The position numbers and the translations under genes were made by a program. The notes below the pieces were generated by a model, which worked only from the letters and a program-made list of their open reading frames with translations, was not told the DNA's origin and searched no databases. A DNA stretch of 37,028 bases from Spirochaetales bacterium (GTDB taxonomy: Bacteria > Spirochaetota > Spirochaetia > DSM-2461): contig JAQQAM010000188.1 of assembly GCA_028532905.1 (NCBI GenBank), positions 1 through 37,028 of the forward strand, written 5' to 3'. Each line of letters begins with the position of its first letter. The first letter of the stretch is position 1. Positions 5,519-21,580 of the stretch are shown in pieces.

Positions 5519-6205
5519 ATGGCACTGATTTTTGTAATTGAAGACAATGACTCGATCAGGGAGGCGGTTTCAGGGTATCTGAAGCTTTCCGATTATGAAG
5601 TGGAAGAATTTGAAGTACTCAGCGGCGTTAAGGAAGCCATTGCCTCCAAAAACCCGGAACTTCTCATTCTGGATGCAATGCTCCCCGACGGAGACGGTTT
5701 CGTTTTCGCCAAGGAGATACGGCAGAAATCGGATGTTCCGATTATCTTTATGACAGCCCGTGAATCCGAGTCGGACCGTATTACCGGATTTGAAGTCGGG
5801 GCGGACGACTACATCGTCAAACCCTTCTCACCGAAAGAACTGGTTCTGAGGGTGGGTGCTGTTCTGAAAAGAACAGGAACCGCAGTCCCCCAGAAAAAAA
5901 TGCAGGGCTGGGAGCTGGATGGTCAGATTCTGACCACAGATGAAGATTCCCATAAAGCCATGCTGAACAACCAGCAGCTGAAACTGACTGCCGCAGAGTG
6001 GAAAATCCTCCTGTACCTGTCTTCCAATGGCGGAGCCGTTGTCTCCCGGGAGCAGATACTGGACCGTTGTCTGGAATATTCCTTTGAGGGATACGACCGG
6101 ACTGTGGATACCCATATTAAAAACCTGCGTGCCAAACTGCAGAACCCGGACTGGATTGAAACTGTAAGAGGATACGGATACAGGTTTGCAGGAAACAGTA
6201 AGTGA
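5519..6205 (+). CDS. OmpR/PhoB-family response regulator
   Basis: A two-domain transcription factor of 228 residues. The receiver domain (about 1-118) has the acidic pair in VIEDND, phospho-acceptor D52 in LILDAMLPDG, the conserved T in FMTARE and K in IVKPFSP. The C-terminal winged helix (about 130-228) has the expected GYDRTVDTHIKNLRAKL recognition region and VRGYGYRF. The ATG lacks a clear Shine-Dalgarno. Its stop overlaps the GTG start of the kinase gene by 4 bp, so the two are a cognate pair. The 11-bp direct repeats upstream of the next gene, a porin, make that gene a likely target. Confidence 0.93.
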   Translation: MALIFVIEDNDSIREAVSGYLKLSDYEVEEFEVLSGVKEAIASKNPELLILDAMLPDGDGFVFAKEIRQKSDVPIIFMTARESESDRITGFEVGADDYIVKPFSPKELVLRVGAVLKRTGTAVPQKKMQGWELDGQILTTDEDSHKAMLNNQQLKLTAAEWKILLYLSSNGGAVVSREQILDRCLEYSFEGYDRTVDTHIKNLRAKLQNPDWIETVRGYGYRFAGNSK

Positions 6206-7536
6206 GATCAATGCGCGCCAGAATGCTGGCGGCTTTTTTCCTTATAATACTATTTAATACCATATTGCTGGTTGTATCCTTTCTGTTCGGATACAGCAGT
6301 TCGCGGAAGTACTGGAACTACCTGGTAGAACAGGAATCCCGCAAAGTGGTAATGGAATTTCTGACAGGAGTGATGGAGACCGGCGGTGTTCTGAACTCTG
6401 ACACAGCATCCCGGCTGCTGGATGATTACGACGGCAGTCTGGTCAACACCGCCCAGGTGTTTCTCTTTTCTCCCGACCAGAGGGAACTGGGAGGATGGGT
6501 CAATCCCACACTCACAGACTACAAAGCCCTTGAGGCTGATGTCACTCTGGCCAACCCTCTGTATCTGAAGGATCAGCTGAGGGGCTATGTGGAGATTGTT
6601 CCCCTGAAATTCCGGGATCTGGAACTCAACAATATTTTTATTTCCCGCATTATACAGCTTCTTATTCTGGGTCTTATTATATCCACAGGCCTCTCCCTGC
6701 TACTGGCATTCAGCATATCCGGCACCTTTACGAAAGAAGCCCGGAACACAGCCCGGTCTCTGATCAACCTGGCCGCCGGTTCAAGACGGGAGGAATTCTT
6801 TCATACCCCTACCCGGGAACTGGCATCCATCAACAAGGCGGCAGGTTCCCTCCAGTCCATGCTCATCTCAGAAGAACAGAGGCGGCAGCGCTGGTCCACC
6901 AGTATTGCCCATGACCTGCGGACTCCCCTGACGGCCATGCGGACCCAGTTTACCGCCTGCCGGGACGGCGCCCTTGCACTGGATGAAAAGCGGTGGAACA
7001 GAATCATTGCCGAGCTGGATACCATGGAATCTCTGACAAGGGACTTTCTGATTCTGGGGGAACTGGACAGCCCTGTTAAAAAGCTGATGGTCAAAAGGGT
7101 CAAAACTGAAAGCCTGAAACTCAGTGTGTTCGACTCCCTTCAGCATATGGCAGACCTTGCAGATATCGCCCTGAACTGGACCTCCTCCCTGGAAGCGGTC
7201 TACTGTGATTACGATCTGTGCAGCCGGGCTCTGGAGGCTTTAGTCAAGAATGCCCTGCAGCACAGCCCTGCAGGATCTGAAGTGAAGATCAGTCTGAAAG
7301 GCTCCAGCGAAAGCCCTGTATTCACCATCGTGAACCGGGGGCATATCCCCGAGGAGCACCTGGACCATATCTTTGATCCCCTCTATAAAACAGATAACAG
7401 CCGGAAAATGGAGGGCAGCGGACTGGGCTTGACCATTGCCAGCCGGATCGCGGCATTTCATAACGGCTCTATAGAGGTTAAAAACCTTCCTGAACACTCT
7501 GTTTCTTTTGATTTCAGCTTAAATCAAGCCGGATAA
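6202..7536 (+). CDS. Membrane sensor histidine kinase
   Basis: The partner of the preceding response regulator, 444 residues. Transmembrane segments at about 8-30 and 150-172 bracket an extracytoplasmic sensor domain of some 115 residues. A HAMP-like linker follows, then the dimerisation helix with phospho-accepting H237 in AHDLRTPLTAMR. The ATPase domain carries an N box (ALVKNALQHSP), an NxG-type G1 box (IVNRGHIPEEHL) and the G2 box GSGLGLTIAS. The start is GTG 6202, with AGGAAA 8 nt upstream and a 4-bp overlap with the regulator stop; ATG 6211 is a weaker alternative. The signal sensed is unknown; envelope state or osmolarity would fit the porin next door. Confidence 0.93.
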   Translation: MRSMRARMLAAFFLIILFNTILLVVSFLFGYSSSRKYWNYLVEQESRKVVMEFLTGVMETGGVLNSDTASRLLDDYDGSLVNTAQVFLFSPDQRELGGWVNPTLTDYKALEADVTLANPLYLKDQLRGYVEIVPLKFRDLELNNIFISRIIQLLILGLIISTGLSLLLAFSISGTFTKEARNTARSLINLAAGSRREEFFHTPTRELASINKAAGSLQSMLISEEQRRQRWSTSIAHDLRTPLTAMRTQFTACRDGALALDEKRWNRIIAELDTMESLTRDFLILGELDSPVKKLMVKRVKTESLKLSVFDSLQHMADLADIALNWTSSLEAVYCDYDLCSRALEALVKNALQHSPAGSEVKISLKGSSESPVFTIVNRGHIPEEHLDHIFDPLYKTDNSRKMEGSGLGLTIASRIAAFHNGSIEVKNLPEHSVSFDFSLNQAG

Positions 7537-15986: not shown

Positions 15987-16361
15987 CTAGGCTTTCCACA
16001 GTCCATGAAGATTACAGTACTCTCTGGCTGATACTTCAGACGCTTCAACACAGAACTCAGCCACAGGCTGATCTCCGGGATTCAGTTTCTGTCTGTAGAC
16101 TTTACCATCGGCAATCAGTTCGATCCACTGGATGGAATGTTCTTCTGTCATGGGATGAAGGGTACTGCCAACAGTGACTCTGTATCCGCCGTCGATTTTT
16201 TCAATAACAGGGACATGCTTTTCAGTAGAGGAATCTGCCGTTTTTTCATCCTGAAGTTTCATGGGTTCGCCGCAGCAGACCAGTACGCCTCCGCCGGCAT
16301 TCAGAACTTCAACAATATTACCGCAATGATCACATTTATAAACCTGGTTCACAGCTATCAT
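15987..16361 (-). CDS. dfx: Desulfoferrodoxin (superoxide reductase)
   Basis: Reduces superoxide to hydrogen peroxide without making oxygen, a hallmark of anaerobes. The N-terminal desulforedoxin domain has an iron site at C10, C13, C29 and C30 (CDHC and CC). The catalytic neelaredoxin domain keeps the four-His, one-Cys site in [21 protein letters not shown] and YCNLHGLW; the glutamate before the first His is also present. The 124-residue length matches two-iron desulfoferrodoxins. The ATG follows AGGAGA. It lies between rubrerythrin and rubredoxin genes on the same strand, and rubredoxin is its usual electron donor. Confidence 0.96.
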
Positions 16362-16418
16362 ATCTTTCTCCTGTATCTTTTGATACGAATATTATGTGCT
16401 GGCCTGATGAGCCGGCAC

Positions 16419-16472
16419 GGCAGGACACAAGGTCCTGCCTTAATCTTCACTTCCCGGAAAATTACTCCGGGA
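16419..16472 (-). other. Two hairpins between rubrerythrin and desulfoferrodoxin genes
   Basis: GGCAGGAC/GTCCTGCC (16419-16439) and TCCCGGA/TCCGGGA (16452-16472) are perfect stem-loops directly after the rubrerythrin stop codon. Neither has a good T tract, so they may act as partial terminators or as mRNA 3' end stabilisers rather than full stops. Confidence 0.5.
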
Positions 16473-16480
16473 GCAATAAA

Positions 16481-17056
16481 TTACCAGTTTTCTCCCAGAA
16501 GCTCGAAGTGAGCCTGGGGATGTGCACAGGCAGGACATACCTGGGGAGCACTTTTTCCTTCGTGCAGGTAGCCGCAGTTCATGCATCTCCATACAACATC
16601 GGATTCTTTTTCGAACATGCTTCCCTCATCAATGAGTTTTTTCAGTCCGAGATATCTTTTTTCATGCTGTTTTTCAGCAACCGCAATCGCTTCAAAAATA
16701 GTCGCGATGGCAGAGAATCCTTCTTCTCTGGCTGTTGCTGCAAACTCAGGGTACATAACAGTCCATTCATGATGCTCACCGGCAGCCGCTTCCGCCAGGT
16801 TTTCTGAGGTTGTACCGATCACACCTGCAGGGAAGGCCGCTGTAATCTCAACTTCTCCGCCTTCCAGAAGTTTGAACAGTCTTTTTGCATGCTCTTTTTC
16901 CTGATTGGCTGTTTCTTCAAATACCCAGGCAGCCTGCATGAACCCTTCTTTCTTCGCTTTGCTTACAAAATAGGTATAGCGGTTTCTTGCCTGTGACTCT
17001 CCGCAGAAAGCGGTGAGGATGTTCTTCTCTGTTTTGGATCCTTTCAAACTTGCCAT
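16481..17056 (-). CDS. rbr: Rubrerythrin
   Basis: A peroxide-reducing diiron protein of anaerobes, 191 residues. The N-terminal ferritin-like domain carries the first ligand E20 in CGESQARNRY, then EETANQEKEHA and AVAEKQHEKRY as the other iron-binding helices. The C-terminal rubredoxin domain has CMNC and CPAC separated by 12 residues. It would take electrons from the rubredoxin encoded downstream and remove hydrogen peroxide made by the superoxide reductase. The ATG follows AGGAG. A CAGAAC-6-GTTCTG inverted repeat at 17101-17118 in its leader is a possible regulatory site. Confidence 0.97.
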   Translation of the reverse strand: MASLKGSKTEKNILTAFCGESQARNRYTYFVSKAKKEGFMQAAWVFEETANQEKEHAKRLFKLLEGGEVEITAAFPAGVIGTTSENLAEAAAGEHHEWTVMYPEFAATAREEGFSAIATIFEAIAVAEKQHEKRYLGLKKLIDEGSMFEKESDVVWRCMNCGYLHEGKSAPQVCPACAHPQAHFELLGENW

Positions 17057-17233
17057 AGATTACTCCTGATTTGCTGCATTAATATAGCAGTCGTTTTTTC
17101 CAGAACCATACAGTTCTGACAAACAGTTTTTATACACGATTCCTTCCCCCCGGTGTTAGAGGATAAATGAAGGTTTCATGTCTATTTGAAAAATTGGTAT
17201 CTCTGTAAATTAACAGGTATAATAACCTGAAAT

Positions 17234-17626
17234 TCAAGTTTCAGAGGCACATTCTTCACAAAGTCCCTGATAATGGAGTGTAGAAGATTTAATCTTTCTT
17301 TTTTTCACCCATTCACTCTCCTGACTCAGAGCCGGAGCGTGAATATCAAAAGGAATATCTTCTATTTTACCACATCTTTCACATCTGAAGTGAGGATGGG
17401 CTGAAGTATTGTAGTCAAAACGCTTCTGACCATCAGGAGTATCAATCTTGATGATCATACCATTCTTGTACATTAACTCCAGATTCCGGTATACGGTGCC
17501 AAGGCTAACATTGGGAAGCTTTTTCCTGACATATTCATACACCGCATCAGCAGGGGGGTGAGATTTACTCATTTTCAGAGCTTCAATGATTACTTTTCTC
17601 TGAGAAGTCATTCTAATCTCATTCAT
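17234..17626 (-). CDS. perR: Peroxide-sensing Fur-family repressor, PerR type
   Basis: A 130-residue metal-dependent repressor. The winged helix (1-68) contains VSLGTVYRNLELM. The structural zinc site is CERC and CEEC. Sensing residues match Bacillus PerR: H23, D71, H77 and H79 correspond to H37, D85, H91 and H93. The aspartate, where Fur usually has glutamate, favours PerR. Its own promoter holds a Fur/PerR-like box and leaves no leader before ATG 17626, so it is likely autorepressed. It heads the cluster of rubrerythrin, desulfoferrodoxin and rubredoxin genes on the same strand. A small CAGGT-6-ACCTG hairpin follows its stop. Confidence 0.92.
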   Translation of the reverse strand: MNEIRMTSQRKVIIEALKMSKSHPPADAVYEYVRKKLPNVSLGTVYRNLELMYKNGMIIKIDTPDGQKRFDYNTSAHPHFRCERCGKIEDIPFDIHAPALSQESEWVKKRKIKSSTLHYQGLCEECASET

Positions 17627-17718: not shown

Positions 17719-19251
17719 TCAGGGCGAAATCAATGCATCCAGAAGACGGCTCCAGTCCGGTGTCTGACCGGGGGATGACAAAGAAGCGGATGAAATAACT
17801 TTAGCAGTGGATGAACTCTTCTCAAATGATTCAGCTGTGGTCACATCAAACCCGGCTCTTTTCAGTTGTGTAACCATTCGTCTGAGTTCGGAGTCACCCC
17901 TGTGCTGCAGCAGAATCGGGACTGACGAAGCCCCTCTGTTTCCCTCCAGCCGGTTTCCGCTGATGACGGTCCCCTCTCCCTTGACCGGGGGGAGAGACAC
18001 GAGAAAACGGGCACCGTCAGAACAGGCGGGATCACAGGAAAGACTTCCTCCCAGCTTCTCCGCCAGACTTCTGCCGACCGTCAGCCCGAGACCCGGACCA
18101 TCCCCTTTCTCAATGATTCTGGTAAAGGGTTTAAAAATGGTCTCGCGCTGTTCTGCCTCGATTACAGCACCGAAATTTCTGACAGTTATATTGATGGGGA
18201 AATACCCTGACTCGGCACGATAAATTTTTATAAGCAGATAGAACCCGCCCCTGCTGAATTTCTCGGCATTCTCTATAAGTCTTTCCAAAAGTTCATTCAG
18301 CAGTACAAACCGGGCATTTAAGGCTTCGGGCACATCTCCCTGGAGCAGGACAAATGTCGAATGCCCGGTAGAGAGTGTATAGGCTTCCAGCCTTTTGACC
18401 AGAGCACTCTGCCAGTCTTCCAGAGAACGGGTTTCGCTGACCTGCAGCCTGCTTTTCTCATACAGTGCTGCCGTTTTATCGGGAAAGGCTAGAAAGGAGA
18501 GGTTCCGCACATAAGAATCCAGCTGCCGTCCCGATTCTGCTATGGCAGCGGCTGTGCTTACGGTTTCATCACTCATATTCCTCCTGCCCAGTAAGTCTTC
18601 GCTTTTTTCCAGGATACTGTTCAGGGGAGGGAGTCCTGATTTCAGAAAATCCGCATAGTAGTCACTGCGCTGCTGCAGGTCTTCTCTGGTTGACACATAC
18701 AGATCATTCAGAATATCCATCTGTTCCCTGTAGTATGTGACATCCTTATACAGGATAAGCATGCCGTATCCCTCTTCTTCCTGAATCCTCCGGACAGTGA
18801 TTTCGAAACTTCTGAGGTCTCCATTTTTATCGCTGAGCTTTCTTTCCTGCACGATTGTTCGGCCGTTGGCCTGCACCTGGCTGACCAGCCTTCTGATGTC
18901 TTCATTTTCGGATGGGAACAGTTCCTCCAGAGTAGAACCCAGAATCTTGGTTCCTGTATACCCCCACAGATGTTGCAGCTCCTGATTGAACCAGCTGATG
19001 ATCCCGCGGCTGTTTCTGTACAGAGCGGGTTCTCCCAGATTCTCCATAATAAGAGAAAGGGATTGAACTTTTTCAGCGAGATTCTTTTTTTCTTTTCTGA
19101 ATTGTTCTTCTTTTTCATTTAACTGAATCCCATACAGTCTTCTATGGTAAAAAACAATGGAACCGCTTGTTACAAAAAGAACAGGTATGATAACCAGAAA
19201 AAAAGAGCTGTGGGTAATAAAAGCAATAAAACTGCTGACCGGTTCAAACAT
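17719..19251 (-). CDS. PAS-domain histidine-kinase-like protein lacking the phospho-acceptor His
   Basis: A 510-residue membrane protein. One transmembrane helix lies at about 15-35, followed by a short coiled coil (40-70) and a PAS domain (about 70-185). At the dimerisation helix, FLKSGLPPLNSIL stands where active kinases have the SHELRTPLNxIL motif: K204 replaces His and S205 replaces Glu. The ATPase domain looks competent, with N box LIENAEKFS, NFG-type G1 box and G2 box GPGLGLTVG. The last 65 residues resemble the start of a receiver domain but lack the acidic pair (ILLQHRGD). ATG 19251 overlaps the glycosyltransferase stop by 8 bp; longer starts would lie inside that gene. Confidence 0.8.
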   Translation of the reverse strand: MFEPVSSFIAFITHSSFFLVIIPVLFVTSGSIVFYHRRLYGIQLNEKEEQFRKEKKNLAEKVQSLSLIMENLGEPALYRNSRGIISWFNQELQHLWGYTGTKILGSTLEELFPSENEDIRRLVSQVQANGRTIVQERKLSDKNGDLRSFEITVRRIQEEEGYGMLILYKDVTYYREQMDILNDLYVSTREDLQQRSDYYADFLKSGLPPLNSILEKSEDLLGRRNMSDETVSTAAAIAESGRQLDSYVRNLSFLAFPDKTAALYEKSRLQVSETRSLEDWQSALVKRLEAYTLSTGHSTFVLLQGDVPEALNARFVLLNELLERLIENAEKFSRGGFYLLIKIYRAESGYFPINITVRNFGAVIEAEQRETIFKPFTRIIEKGDGPGLGLTVGRSLAEKLGGSLSCDPACSDGARFLVSLPPVKGEGTVISGNRLEGNRGASSVPILLQHRGDSELRRMVTQLKRAGFDVTTAESFEKSSSTAKVISSASLSSPGQTPDWSRLLDALISP

Positions 19252-20638
19252 AATAGGACTGCCTGGTTTTCTGAAGCCGTCTCCTGCCGGCCCTGATTTC
19301 ATCCCCATAGAAATCAAGAAGTTCTTCCAGCCTGCTGTGCAGCACTTCCAGGCTGAATTCTCTGGCTGCCGATTTAAAGCTCAGATCCACCCGCATTCTC
19401 TTTTCAACAGTGTCTGTCAGAACAGAGTAGACTTTTTTGAGGACCTGTTCTTCAATAATCAGATTTCCCTCTGAATCATACCGGTCCCGGATTTCCACCG
19501 GCTTCACACCGCTTCCCTTGATGTCCGTTTTATAGACAAGATAGGTGCTTGTCACAACGGGAGCTCTGGCTGCAAAGGCTTCCAGCAGGGCATTGCCGAA
19601 TCCTTCCCACAAAGGGAGGTAGCAGACAAGGTCGGCATTGACCAGAACATCCCGGTTTGTATAACAGCGTTTGTCCTCAATCAGACATCTTTCAGCCTTA
19701 ATCCTTTCATAGATCAGGTGCAGTTCCACACCCTCCCGCTGAGCTGTCTGTTTAACCAGATCCAGATATCGGCATTCGGCTTCATCCCCTGGATACAGGG
19801 AGATAATAAACCGGATTTTAGGAGAAAGCTCCGGATATTTCCTGCCTAGAAGCGAAACCAGCCTGATGGAGTCTTCAATTCTTTTCCGGGGAACAATCCG
19901 GGTGGGCTGCACAATCAGTATATCATCAGCAGCAAACCCGAAATCCTCACGAAAATGGCTGTTGTACTCATCTCTGACAGGAGGATGAGCAAAGTCTTCA
20001 GTGTTGGGAATCACACAGGGTTTAACCCGTTTGACAGAGTTCAGAATATGTTCGGCATAGGTGGAAATAACAACATGTTCGTTACTGATGTTATCGGGAG
20101 GCATAATGGTATCAAGCACTGAGTCCAGAAGACAATGACTGAAGCGGCTCCTCTCCCACCAGAAGTCATGATGGTGAAACAGGGCGGGTATGGACTTTCT
20201 CTGAGTCAGGTCGTAAACCGCAGAAGCCCCGATCAGGGTCATGGGCATGGCATTGGTATTCTCTGCAATAATCAGATCAATATCATTCTCCATTATAAAG
20301 TCAAATATGAGTTCTGAAACCTCAAGGCCCTCCTGTTCCAGTTCCCGGGCCAGGGCATTCAGCTTTTTGTCTGAATAGACATGTTTCTGTTCCTGAAGAT
20401 GGGGAAAAATCCTGCTTTCATAATACTGCTGCCGGGGAGAGGAGAAACTCAGTTTTTCTATAAGTAGCCGCTGCTCTTCCGGCACAGGGTCGAGGGATCT
20501 CATATACTGACCGGCTACAGTGAAAATCCTGTGTCCCCGGGAACTCAGGGCTGACATCCATTTATCAGCTTCCAGAGAAACTCCATCCACATCTCCCAGC
20601 TTTCCGCTGATAAAACAGATATTGTACGACTGTGACAT
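19244..20638 (-). CDS. GT-B glycosyltransferase (GT4-like)
   Basis: A 464-residue retaining-type glycosyltransferase with two Rossmann domains. The N-terminal acceptor domain starts CFISGKLGDVDGVSLEADKW. The C-terminal donor domain has VQPTRIVPRKRIEDSIRLV, typical of GT4 enzymes, and WEGFGNALLEAFAARAPVV, the nucleotide-sugar binding E-x7-E region. There is no signal peptide or membrane helix. GT4-like enzymes of this shape make glycosylglycerate-type solutes, glycolipids or polysaccharides; the acceptor cannot be told. Its place between a response regulator and a kinase-like gene, with an 8-bp overlap to the latter, suggests it is part of the signalling output. Confidence 0.82.
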   Translation of the reverse strand: MSQSYNICFISGKLGDVDGVSLEADKWMSALSSRGHRIFTVAGQYMRSLDPVPEEQRLLIEKLSFSSPRQQYYESRIFPHLQEQKHVYSDKKLNALARELEQEGLEVSELIFDFIMENDIDLIIAENTNAMPMTLIGASAVYDLTQRKSIPALFHHHDFWWERSRFSHCLLDSVLDTIMPPDNISNEHVVISTYAEHILNSVKRVKPCVIPNTEDFAHPPVRDEYNSHFREDFGFAADDILIVQPTRIVPRKRIEDSIRLVSLLGRKYPELSPKIRFIISLYPGDEAECRYLDLVKQTAQREGVELHLIYERIKAERCLIEDKRCYTNRDVLVNADLVCYLPLWEGFGNALLEAFAARAPVVTSTYLVYKTDIKGSGVKPVEIRDRYDSEGNLIIEEQVLKKVYSVLTDTVEKRMRVDLSFKSAAREFSLEVLHSRLEELLDFYGDEIRAGRRRLQKTRQSYYV

Positions 20639-20683: not shown

Positions 20684-21391
20684 TCATGACCGGTCAAAGC
20701 AGTACCCCACCCCTCTGACGGTTTTAAGATAGACCGGCCGGGAGGGAGATTCCTCTATCTTGGTTCTCAGATGTCTGATATGAACATCCACCGTTCTCTC
20801 ATCCCCGTAATGGGTGCTCTCTGATGACCAGACACTGTTCAGAAGTTCCTTTCTGCCGAAGGTCTGTCCCTCGTTTTTCAGAAAAAAGAGAAGAAGCTTA
20901 TACTCAATGGGGGTCAGCTCCACTTCCCTGCCCTCTTTTTTCAGACTCATTCCCTCTCGGCTCAGAGAATAGGGGCCAAAGGTATAATCCTCCCTGCTGC
21001 CGGTATTCGAAAGAACTCCATAGGAGCGCCGTAAGCGGGCGTTAATACGGGAAAGAAGCTCTCCCCGGCTGTAGGGCTTGACGATGTAGTCGTCTGCTCC
21101 GTCTTCCAGTCCCCGGATCTTGTCCAGATCATCATCCCGGGCGGTCAGCATGATTACGGGAAAATGCTCACCCCGTTCCCGGAGTTCCCGGCAGATCTGA
21201 AACCCGTCTTTACCGGGCAGCCGGATATCCAGCAGCAGAAGAGAGGGTGACAAATCAGGAAGTTTATGAAAAAAAGAATCTCCCTCGGAAAAATGGAGAA
21301 CCTGATACCCTGAAGATTCAAGAGTTAGTATAAGGCCTTTTGCAACAGATTCATCATCTTCAATACTGACAATCAGGAAGTCGCTGTTCAT
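20684..21391 (-). CDS. OmpR/PhoB-family response regulator
   Basis: A regulator of 235 residues from ATG 21391 (or 237 from ATG 21397). The receiver domain has the acidic pair in SIEDDES, phospho-acceptor D55 in LLLLDIRLPGKDG, T in MLTARD and K in IVKPYSRGE. The winged helix shows VELTPIEYKLLLFF and DERTVDVHIRHLRTKI. The promoter TTGATA-17-TACATT ends directly before the first ATG, so the second ATG, 6 nt later, is the expected transcription start and the preferred start codon. It heads the operon with the glycosyltransferase and the kinase-like gene. Because the latter lacks its His, the true kinase may lie elsewhere. Confidence 0.92.
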   Translation of the reverse strand: MNSDFLIVSIEDDESVAKGLILTLESSGYQVLHFSEGDSFFHKLPDLSPSLLLLDIRLPGKDGFQICRELRERGEHFPVIMLTARDDDLDKIRGLEDGADDYIVKPYSRGELLSRINARLRRSYGVLSNTGSREDYTFGPYSLSREGMSLKKEGREVELTPIEYKLLLFFLKNEGQTFGRKELLNSVWSSESTHYGDERTVDVHIRHLRTKIEESPSRPVYLKTVRGVGYCFDRS

Positions 21392-21397
21392 GAGCAT

Positions 21398-21426: not shown

Positions 21427-21491
21427 AGAGTCCTGTCCTGCCGGCAGACTGCTGTCCCGATCAGGGGGCCCCGGTCTTGTGAGAATAAAAA

Positions 21492-21531
21492 AAATCCCTT
21501 CTGCAGGATGGGTGTCCGGCAAAAGGGATTT
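21492..21531 (-). terminator. Terminator of the opp operon
   Basis: AAATCCCTT (21492-21500) pairs with AAGGGATTT (21523-21531) around a 22-nt loop. On the minus strand a T run follows. It lies 74 bp after the oppF stop codon. Confidence 0.8.
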
Positions 21532-21545
21532 GTTTCATTAGACCT

Positions 21546-21580
21546 GTGGCAGTCTGTAGACCAGTGGCAGTCCGTAAACC
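21546..21580. repeat. Imperfect 18-bp tandem repeat
   Basis: GTGGCAGTCTGTAGACCA at 21546-21563 is followed directly by GTGGCAGTCCGTAAACC at 21564-21580. It lies in the noncoding stretch between oppF and its terminator. No function is evident. Confidence 0.6.

Follow-up and report, generated by a model that had tools for sequence, protein, structure and literature searches.

Here we describe a conserved, lineage-restricted pseudo-histidine kinase which, as judged from its sequence, is a new family within an already recognised kind of protein (described, in part, in PMC12632262, PMC4211667 and PMC7028121). The protein has 510 amino acids and is encoded on the minus strand at positions 17719..19251 of a 37,028-nucleotide stretch of DNA from a Spirochaetales bacterium, hereafter the window, with an ATG at 19251 and a stop codon at 17721-17719. 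That it is a pseudokinase is, on this evidence, near certain. Because the histidine that passes on the phosphate has been lost, yet the protein has been kept by evolution beside a glycosyltransferase, the arrangement suggests signalling through a change of shape rather than through phosphorylation. The full reading, in which a non-phosphorylating PAS sensor would act on that glycosyltransferase, has in our estimate a probability of about 0.42, and the choice of the glycosyltransferase as target is a less sure step than the pseudokinase status.

The residues K204 (codon at 18640..18642, minus strand, placed by the alignments) and S205 occupy the exact position of the His-Glu pair of HisKA kinases, just as the original prediction had stated. 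In the four orthologues, that of the window included, residue 204 reads K, R, K, R and residue 205 reads S, S, T, T, ahead of an invariant GLPPL; the replacement of the H box is thus common to all four, which is beyond chance. In the column of K204, a histidine stands in 21 of 25 distinct relatives, and the remaining four have a readable H-box histidine that the aligner displaced. A sequencing error or frameshift at the H box is ruled out by the agreement of the four orthologues, and a shifted phospho-accepting histidine is likewise ruled out, since no column anywhere in the four is invariantly histidine. The original prediction had proposed an alignment of close homologues, with a nearby phospho-accepting histidine or a homologue with a normal H box as the findings that would tell against it: all four orthologues lack a histidine at the H-box position, the search turned up no orthologue whose H box is normal, and residues 173-270 of the window protein, which make up its DHp-like helices, hold no histidine at all. 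Pfam does not match HisKA anywhere in the protein at E values up to 1, and the protein is not among the 55 places elsewhere in the genome where HisKA does match. The histidine is missing in 0.9% of HisKA domains, 722 of 76,471, according to the available text of PMC12632262.

The orthologues were found among five other genomes of the genus (G001 to G005), with identities over the alignment of 59% in G004, 51% in G002 and 48% in G003. Outside the genus, in a class sample of 394 genomes with the best three candidates per genome scored, there was no orthologue at E <= 1e-25 bar two ordinary hybrid kinases; just the four family members score, and the two further matches (G017:C53 and G013:C56, 94-98 bits) have an intact H box. 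These two HisKA hybrids share the order PAS-DHp-CA-receiver and align end to end with the pseudokinase but, unlike it, they keep SHELRTP and the G1 Asp. A scan of the genome's own contigs returned only one other kinase-like match. Elsewhere in the window, at 5519-7536, lies an ordinary pair of response regulator and histidine kinase with a HisKA match.

The starts of the orthologues favour the ATG at 19251, and a TTG upstream at 19317, the mere mechanical first start of the frame, was set aside on the same grounds. From this start the protein begins with a single predicted membrane helix at about residues 15-37 (19141..19209, minus strand as for all features of the gene), recognised by hydropathy and lying within helix 3-70 of the AlphaFold model, followed by a PAS domain at about residues 62-172 (18736..19068; Pfam PAS_4, 2.1e-10, and the model). 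A signalling helix and a DHp-like two-helix segment then span residues 173-270 (18442..18735), assigned from the model and the fold match, and lead into a CA (HATPase_c) domain that, with its lead-in, covers residues 271-424 (17980..18441; Pfam HATPase_c 1e-10, model and fold match). The model has a mean pLDDT of 83.5 and a pTM of 0.60, and it shows the N-terminal helix, a PAS fold, the CA domain and, at the place for which a structure prediction had originally been suggested, two helices at 172-222 and 228-255; since 20 of the 24 sequences in the alignment behind it are ordinary kinases, the model is no independent test of that hypothesis, namely that the protein is a kinase. In a second-look fold alignment, model residues 184-425 align onto DHp-CA kinases, the matches being ShkA 6qrj (Z 17.6, rmsd 4.3, 219 aligned), the CA domain of ThkA 3a0t (Z 16.5, rmsd 2.5, 145 aligned) and DivL 4q20 (Z 16.1, rmsd 6.1, 222 aligned). 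After the CA domain, at residues 425-440 (about 17932-17979), the stretch GEGTVISG is invariant across the four orthologues; it is modelled as added strands, is absent from the aligned hybrid kinases and is a possible contact element. The stretches RSDYYADFL-GLPPL and RNLSFLAFPDK are invariant as well.

The ATP site is a mixture of kept and altered parts. The N box NAEKF and the G2 box GPGLGL are both found, as originally claimed, and the G1 box (18160..18177, located from alignments), which the original prediction did not mention, has changed its Asp to Asn, reading NFGAVI, NHGPII, NIGPAI and NLGPAI in the four orthologues. Among the distinct relatives aligned here, excluding rows that had over six gaps, 50 of 50 carry Asp at this position, against Asn in 4 of 4 pseudokinase orthologues. 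An Asn also occupies this place in the G1 box of ThkA, a solved kinase (NSGPPI in 3a0r), and a crystal form of the ThkA domain with ADP exists, so that nucleotide binding by the pseudokinase would stay possible; from the sequence, the altered G1 box could either have cost it ATP binding or have left that intact. The earlier suggestion of an ATP-gated switch is therefore uncertain, weakened by the altered G1 box and helped by the example of ThkA, in which such an alteration can be tolerated.

The C-terminal end, residues 444-510 (17722..17922), is the remnant of a receiver from which the phospho-Asp core has been deleted, as seen from Pfam, the orthologue alignment and the model. These residues align with the beginning and the end of a receiver, about 35 residues, the phospho-Asp site among them, are missing relative to the orthologues, and there is no Pfam match to PF00072 in the tail up to E = 1, all of which bears out the description of a receiver that has lost its acidic pocket. 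A profile of the four orthologues still matches solved receivers, through the orthologues. The tails of G002 and G003 remain receiver-like, with an IADND/IADDD start and LVLVDD in G002 or LVLVND in G003 (the end of the G002 protein is cut by its contig), and in G004 the acidic start is lost (IFKDN). As read from these sequences, the tail is a case of graded loss from a hybrid ancestor, proceeding stepwise between species. Identity between the window protein and that of G002 is 28% in the membrane helix and linker, 38% in PAS, 61% in DHp, 68% in CA and 40% in the tail. It is the parts that carry the output, and not the sensor, that are most constrained, even though phosphotransfer is gone; since conservation peaks in DHp and CA, the protein is no decayed pseudogene. 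Where computable, dN/dS lies between 0.04 and 0.33, rough values given that dS exceeds 1.4 (saturated), is undefined in 3 of 10 NG86 estimates and that YN00 gave a value in one case alone. Taken together, the histidine replaced in all four orthologues, the lack of any invariant histidine and the constraint on DHp and CA give good support to the regulatory pseudokinase first proposed.

Immediately upstream lies the gene of a GT4-type glycosyltransferase of 464 amino acids (19244..20638, minus strand), identified by Pfam, alignment, model and fold match. It matches PF00534 with 35.7 bits against a cut-off of 26.4, and its residues E345 and E353, which make up the EX7E pair of GT4 enzymes, are invariant in 20 sequences. 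Its model is confident (pLDDT 88.2), has a GT-B fold and matches the GT4-type enzymes HepE, BshA and WaaG with Z of 30-32 (HepE 4xsr: Z 32.0, rmsd 2.8, 349 aligned); a search by sequence found no solved relative. The nearest curated family, the mannosylglucosylglycerate synthase NF041101, was rejected as an identification at 199 bits against a curated cut-off of 640. In all four pseudokinase genomes the two genes overlap by 8 nt (19244..19251, minus strand), the start codon of the pseudokinase sitting within the final codons of its neighbour. It is the Tyr-Tyr-Val end of the glycosyltransferase that creates this overlapping start codon, and because the G001 enzyme and a few distant glycosyltransferases have the same end, the overlap alone may be a convenient start rather than proof of physical partnership. 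The GT4 family is widespread, being present in 60 of 98 genomes of the class at E <= 1e-20 (loci L039-L101), often with several paralogues, and it was not seen beside such a pseudokinase elsewhere (39 of 43 loci plus the window; L069, L070, L074 and L082 gave no glycosyltransferase row and were dropped). Among the papers listed in literature searches, none joined a pseudo-histidine kinase to a glycosyltransferase.

Two genes upstream of the pseudokinase, in three of the four genomes that carry it, is an OmpR/PhoB-type response regulator with intact receiver residues (20684..21397, minus strand, Pfam). It is preceded on the minus strand by what are presumably oligopeptide-transporter (Opp) genes, and after these a probable terminator hairpin (21487..21531, minus strand) followed by a T run was read by eye, with a similar layout, also by eye, in the relatives. 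Because this hairpin separates them from the transporter genes, the regulator, glycosyltransferase and pseudokinase probably form a unit of their own. A sequence of about 16 bases (GACTGCCAC[T/A]GGTCTA, period 18) occurs twice in tandem at approximately 21538-21573, in the gap that separates the regulator from the transporter genes, and was not seen in the aligned relatives. Downstream of the pseudokinase, the interval 15987-17626 holds a Fur-family regulator (17234-17626, minus strand, Pfam) and two genes that we assume to be rubrerythrin-like and desulfoferrodoxin-like, in the same order in G001, so that an oxidative-stress cluster adjoins the PAS protein.

The genus preserves several states of this module. 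G001 has the regulator and the glycosyltransferase at a contiguous locus from which the pseudokinase is absent (its genome is rated 85% complete), G003 has the glycosyltransferase and the pseudokinase and lacks an orthologue of the regulator, its best remaining match being at 41% and located elsewhere, and G005 lacks this copy of the glycosyltransferase. In the glycosyltransferase tree the clade reads ((G002, G003), (G001, (G004, window))), with branch supports of 96/86, 100/100 and 99/85, and the paralogous copies give the identical branching order with G005 outside. Since its glycosyltransferase nests within pseudokinase-bearing lineages (support 100/100), G001 has lost the pseudokinase, and so the ancestor had regulator, glycosyltransferase and pseudokinase, of which the regulator and the pseudokinase were each lost once and the glycosyltransferase was kept, each loss being a single event in genomes that are draft except for G003. 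Relative-rate tests show faster change of the glycosyltransferase in two genomes, as would suit an enzyme that had lost a partner: G001, with 61:41 and 58:35 unique changes (p 0.048 and 0.017), and G003, with 43:26 and 46:24 (p 0.041 and 0.0086). We give this little weight, because OppC is also significant (p 0.02 and 0.034, one comparison each), the 27 tests are uncorrected and the paralogous glycosyltransferase leans the same way, if without reaching 0.05.

In the reading that we prefer, the pseudokinase would be anchored in the membrane and could neither autophosphorylate nor hand on a phosphate; a cytoplasmic signal at the PAS domain would alter how the conserved DHp/CA dimer is arranged in space, and the dimer would hold at the membrane, or regulate there, the GT4 glycosyltransferase that is translated along with it. 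The adjacent response regulator probably sets the expression of the unit and would not be phosphorylated by the pseudokinase. The original idea of a switch for the glycosyltransferase thereby gains indirect support, from the 8-nt overlap in all four genomes and from the response regulator having been lost independently, and we infer the rest. Against it, the link is one of gene order, and operon neighbours need not touch; moreover, G001 keeps the glycosyltransferase after losing the pseudokinase, so the enzyme is not strictly dependent on it. The further proposal of a histidine-kinase core rewired as a PAS regulator that is tethered to the membrane and controls a GT4 enzyme by conformation alone, bypassing phosphotransfer and response regulators and discarding its receiver species by species, is tentative and, as a whole, doubtful.

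Other readings have been weighed. The pseudokinase might, as the original prediction also allowed, bind or heterodimerise with some other, active histidine kinase of the cell and tune it, as RocA of group A Streptococcus acts through CovS (PMC7028121, in the text available); the conserved DHp-like helices and the 55 HisKA matches in the genome, each a potential partner, suit this, but no partner kinase was seen next to the pseudokinase in the loci retrieved from the four genomes and its gene overlaps that of the glycosyltransferase instead, and we think it unlikely while taking it seriously. RocA is likewise a membrane pseudokinase with a regulatory role, but it has an unneeded histidine (H246; same source), whereas the protein here has neither a DHp histidine nor a known partner kinase. 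It could also sense whether the neighbouring response regulator is phosphorylated, in the way that DivL of Caulobacter senses DivK~P (available text of PMC4211667), which we consider improbable: the regulator gene lies near it in three of the four genomes, but G003 still keeps a constrained pseudokinase where the regulator is dispensable, and G001 retains the regulator without the pseudokinase. DivL resembles the present protein in having PAS and DHp-CA with the histidine replaced, and the same text reports neither kinase nor phosphatase activity for it; there, however, a Tyr stands for the His and the H, N, G1, F and G2 boxes are otherwise kept, whereas here it is Lys or Arg, with altered H box and G1 box.

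Two further readings both seem very improbable. If the protein were a leftover hybrid kinase, without function and in decay, this would account for the varying degradation of the receiver tail, for the loss in G001 and for a window copy that evolves faster than that of G004 (57 versus 27 unique changes, p = 0.001), but the frame is open in all four genomes, the values of dN/dS, though rough, are low, and DHp and CA are far closer between the two clades than PAS is. Slightly less probable still is a protein that remains a kinase, with Ser/Thr205 or another hydroxyl as acceptor, or that phosphorylates a protein such as the glycosyltransferase in the manner of the GHKL Ser/Thr type. A Ser or Thr at 205 in all four orthologues, the retained N and G2 boxes and the G1 Asn shared with the ADP-bound ThkA domain would allow for this. 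The RsbW/SpoIIAB and PDK-type kinases, however, use a Glu four residues ahead of the N-box Asn, and that position is Arg324 in all four orthologues, with no catalytic Glu; the Glu of the H box is lost too. Inactive versions of kinases can otherwise have functions, as does ChrS_CA-fs of Corynebacterium, which PMC9491836 (in the text available) describes as a laboratory-evolved frameshift in CA, whereas here CA is kept and the histidine is gone.

One genus offers a natural series, with the full module, one loss each of regulator and pseudokinase, and a receiver decayed to different degrees. Pseudo-histidine kinases are rare (the 0.9% of HisKA domains in the available text of PMC12632262), and the unusual part here is the possible enzyme target. 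How a DHp core signals when it has no histidine becomes directly testable with small constructs, and if the glycosyltransferase is indeed the target, this would be a two-component sensor whose output is the direct control of an enzyme.
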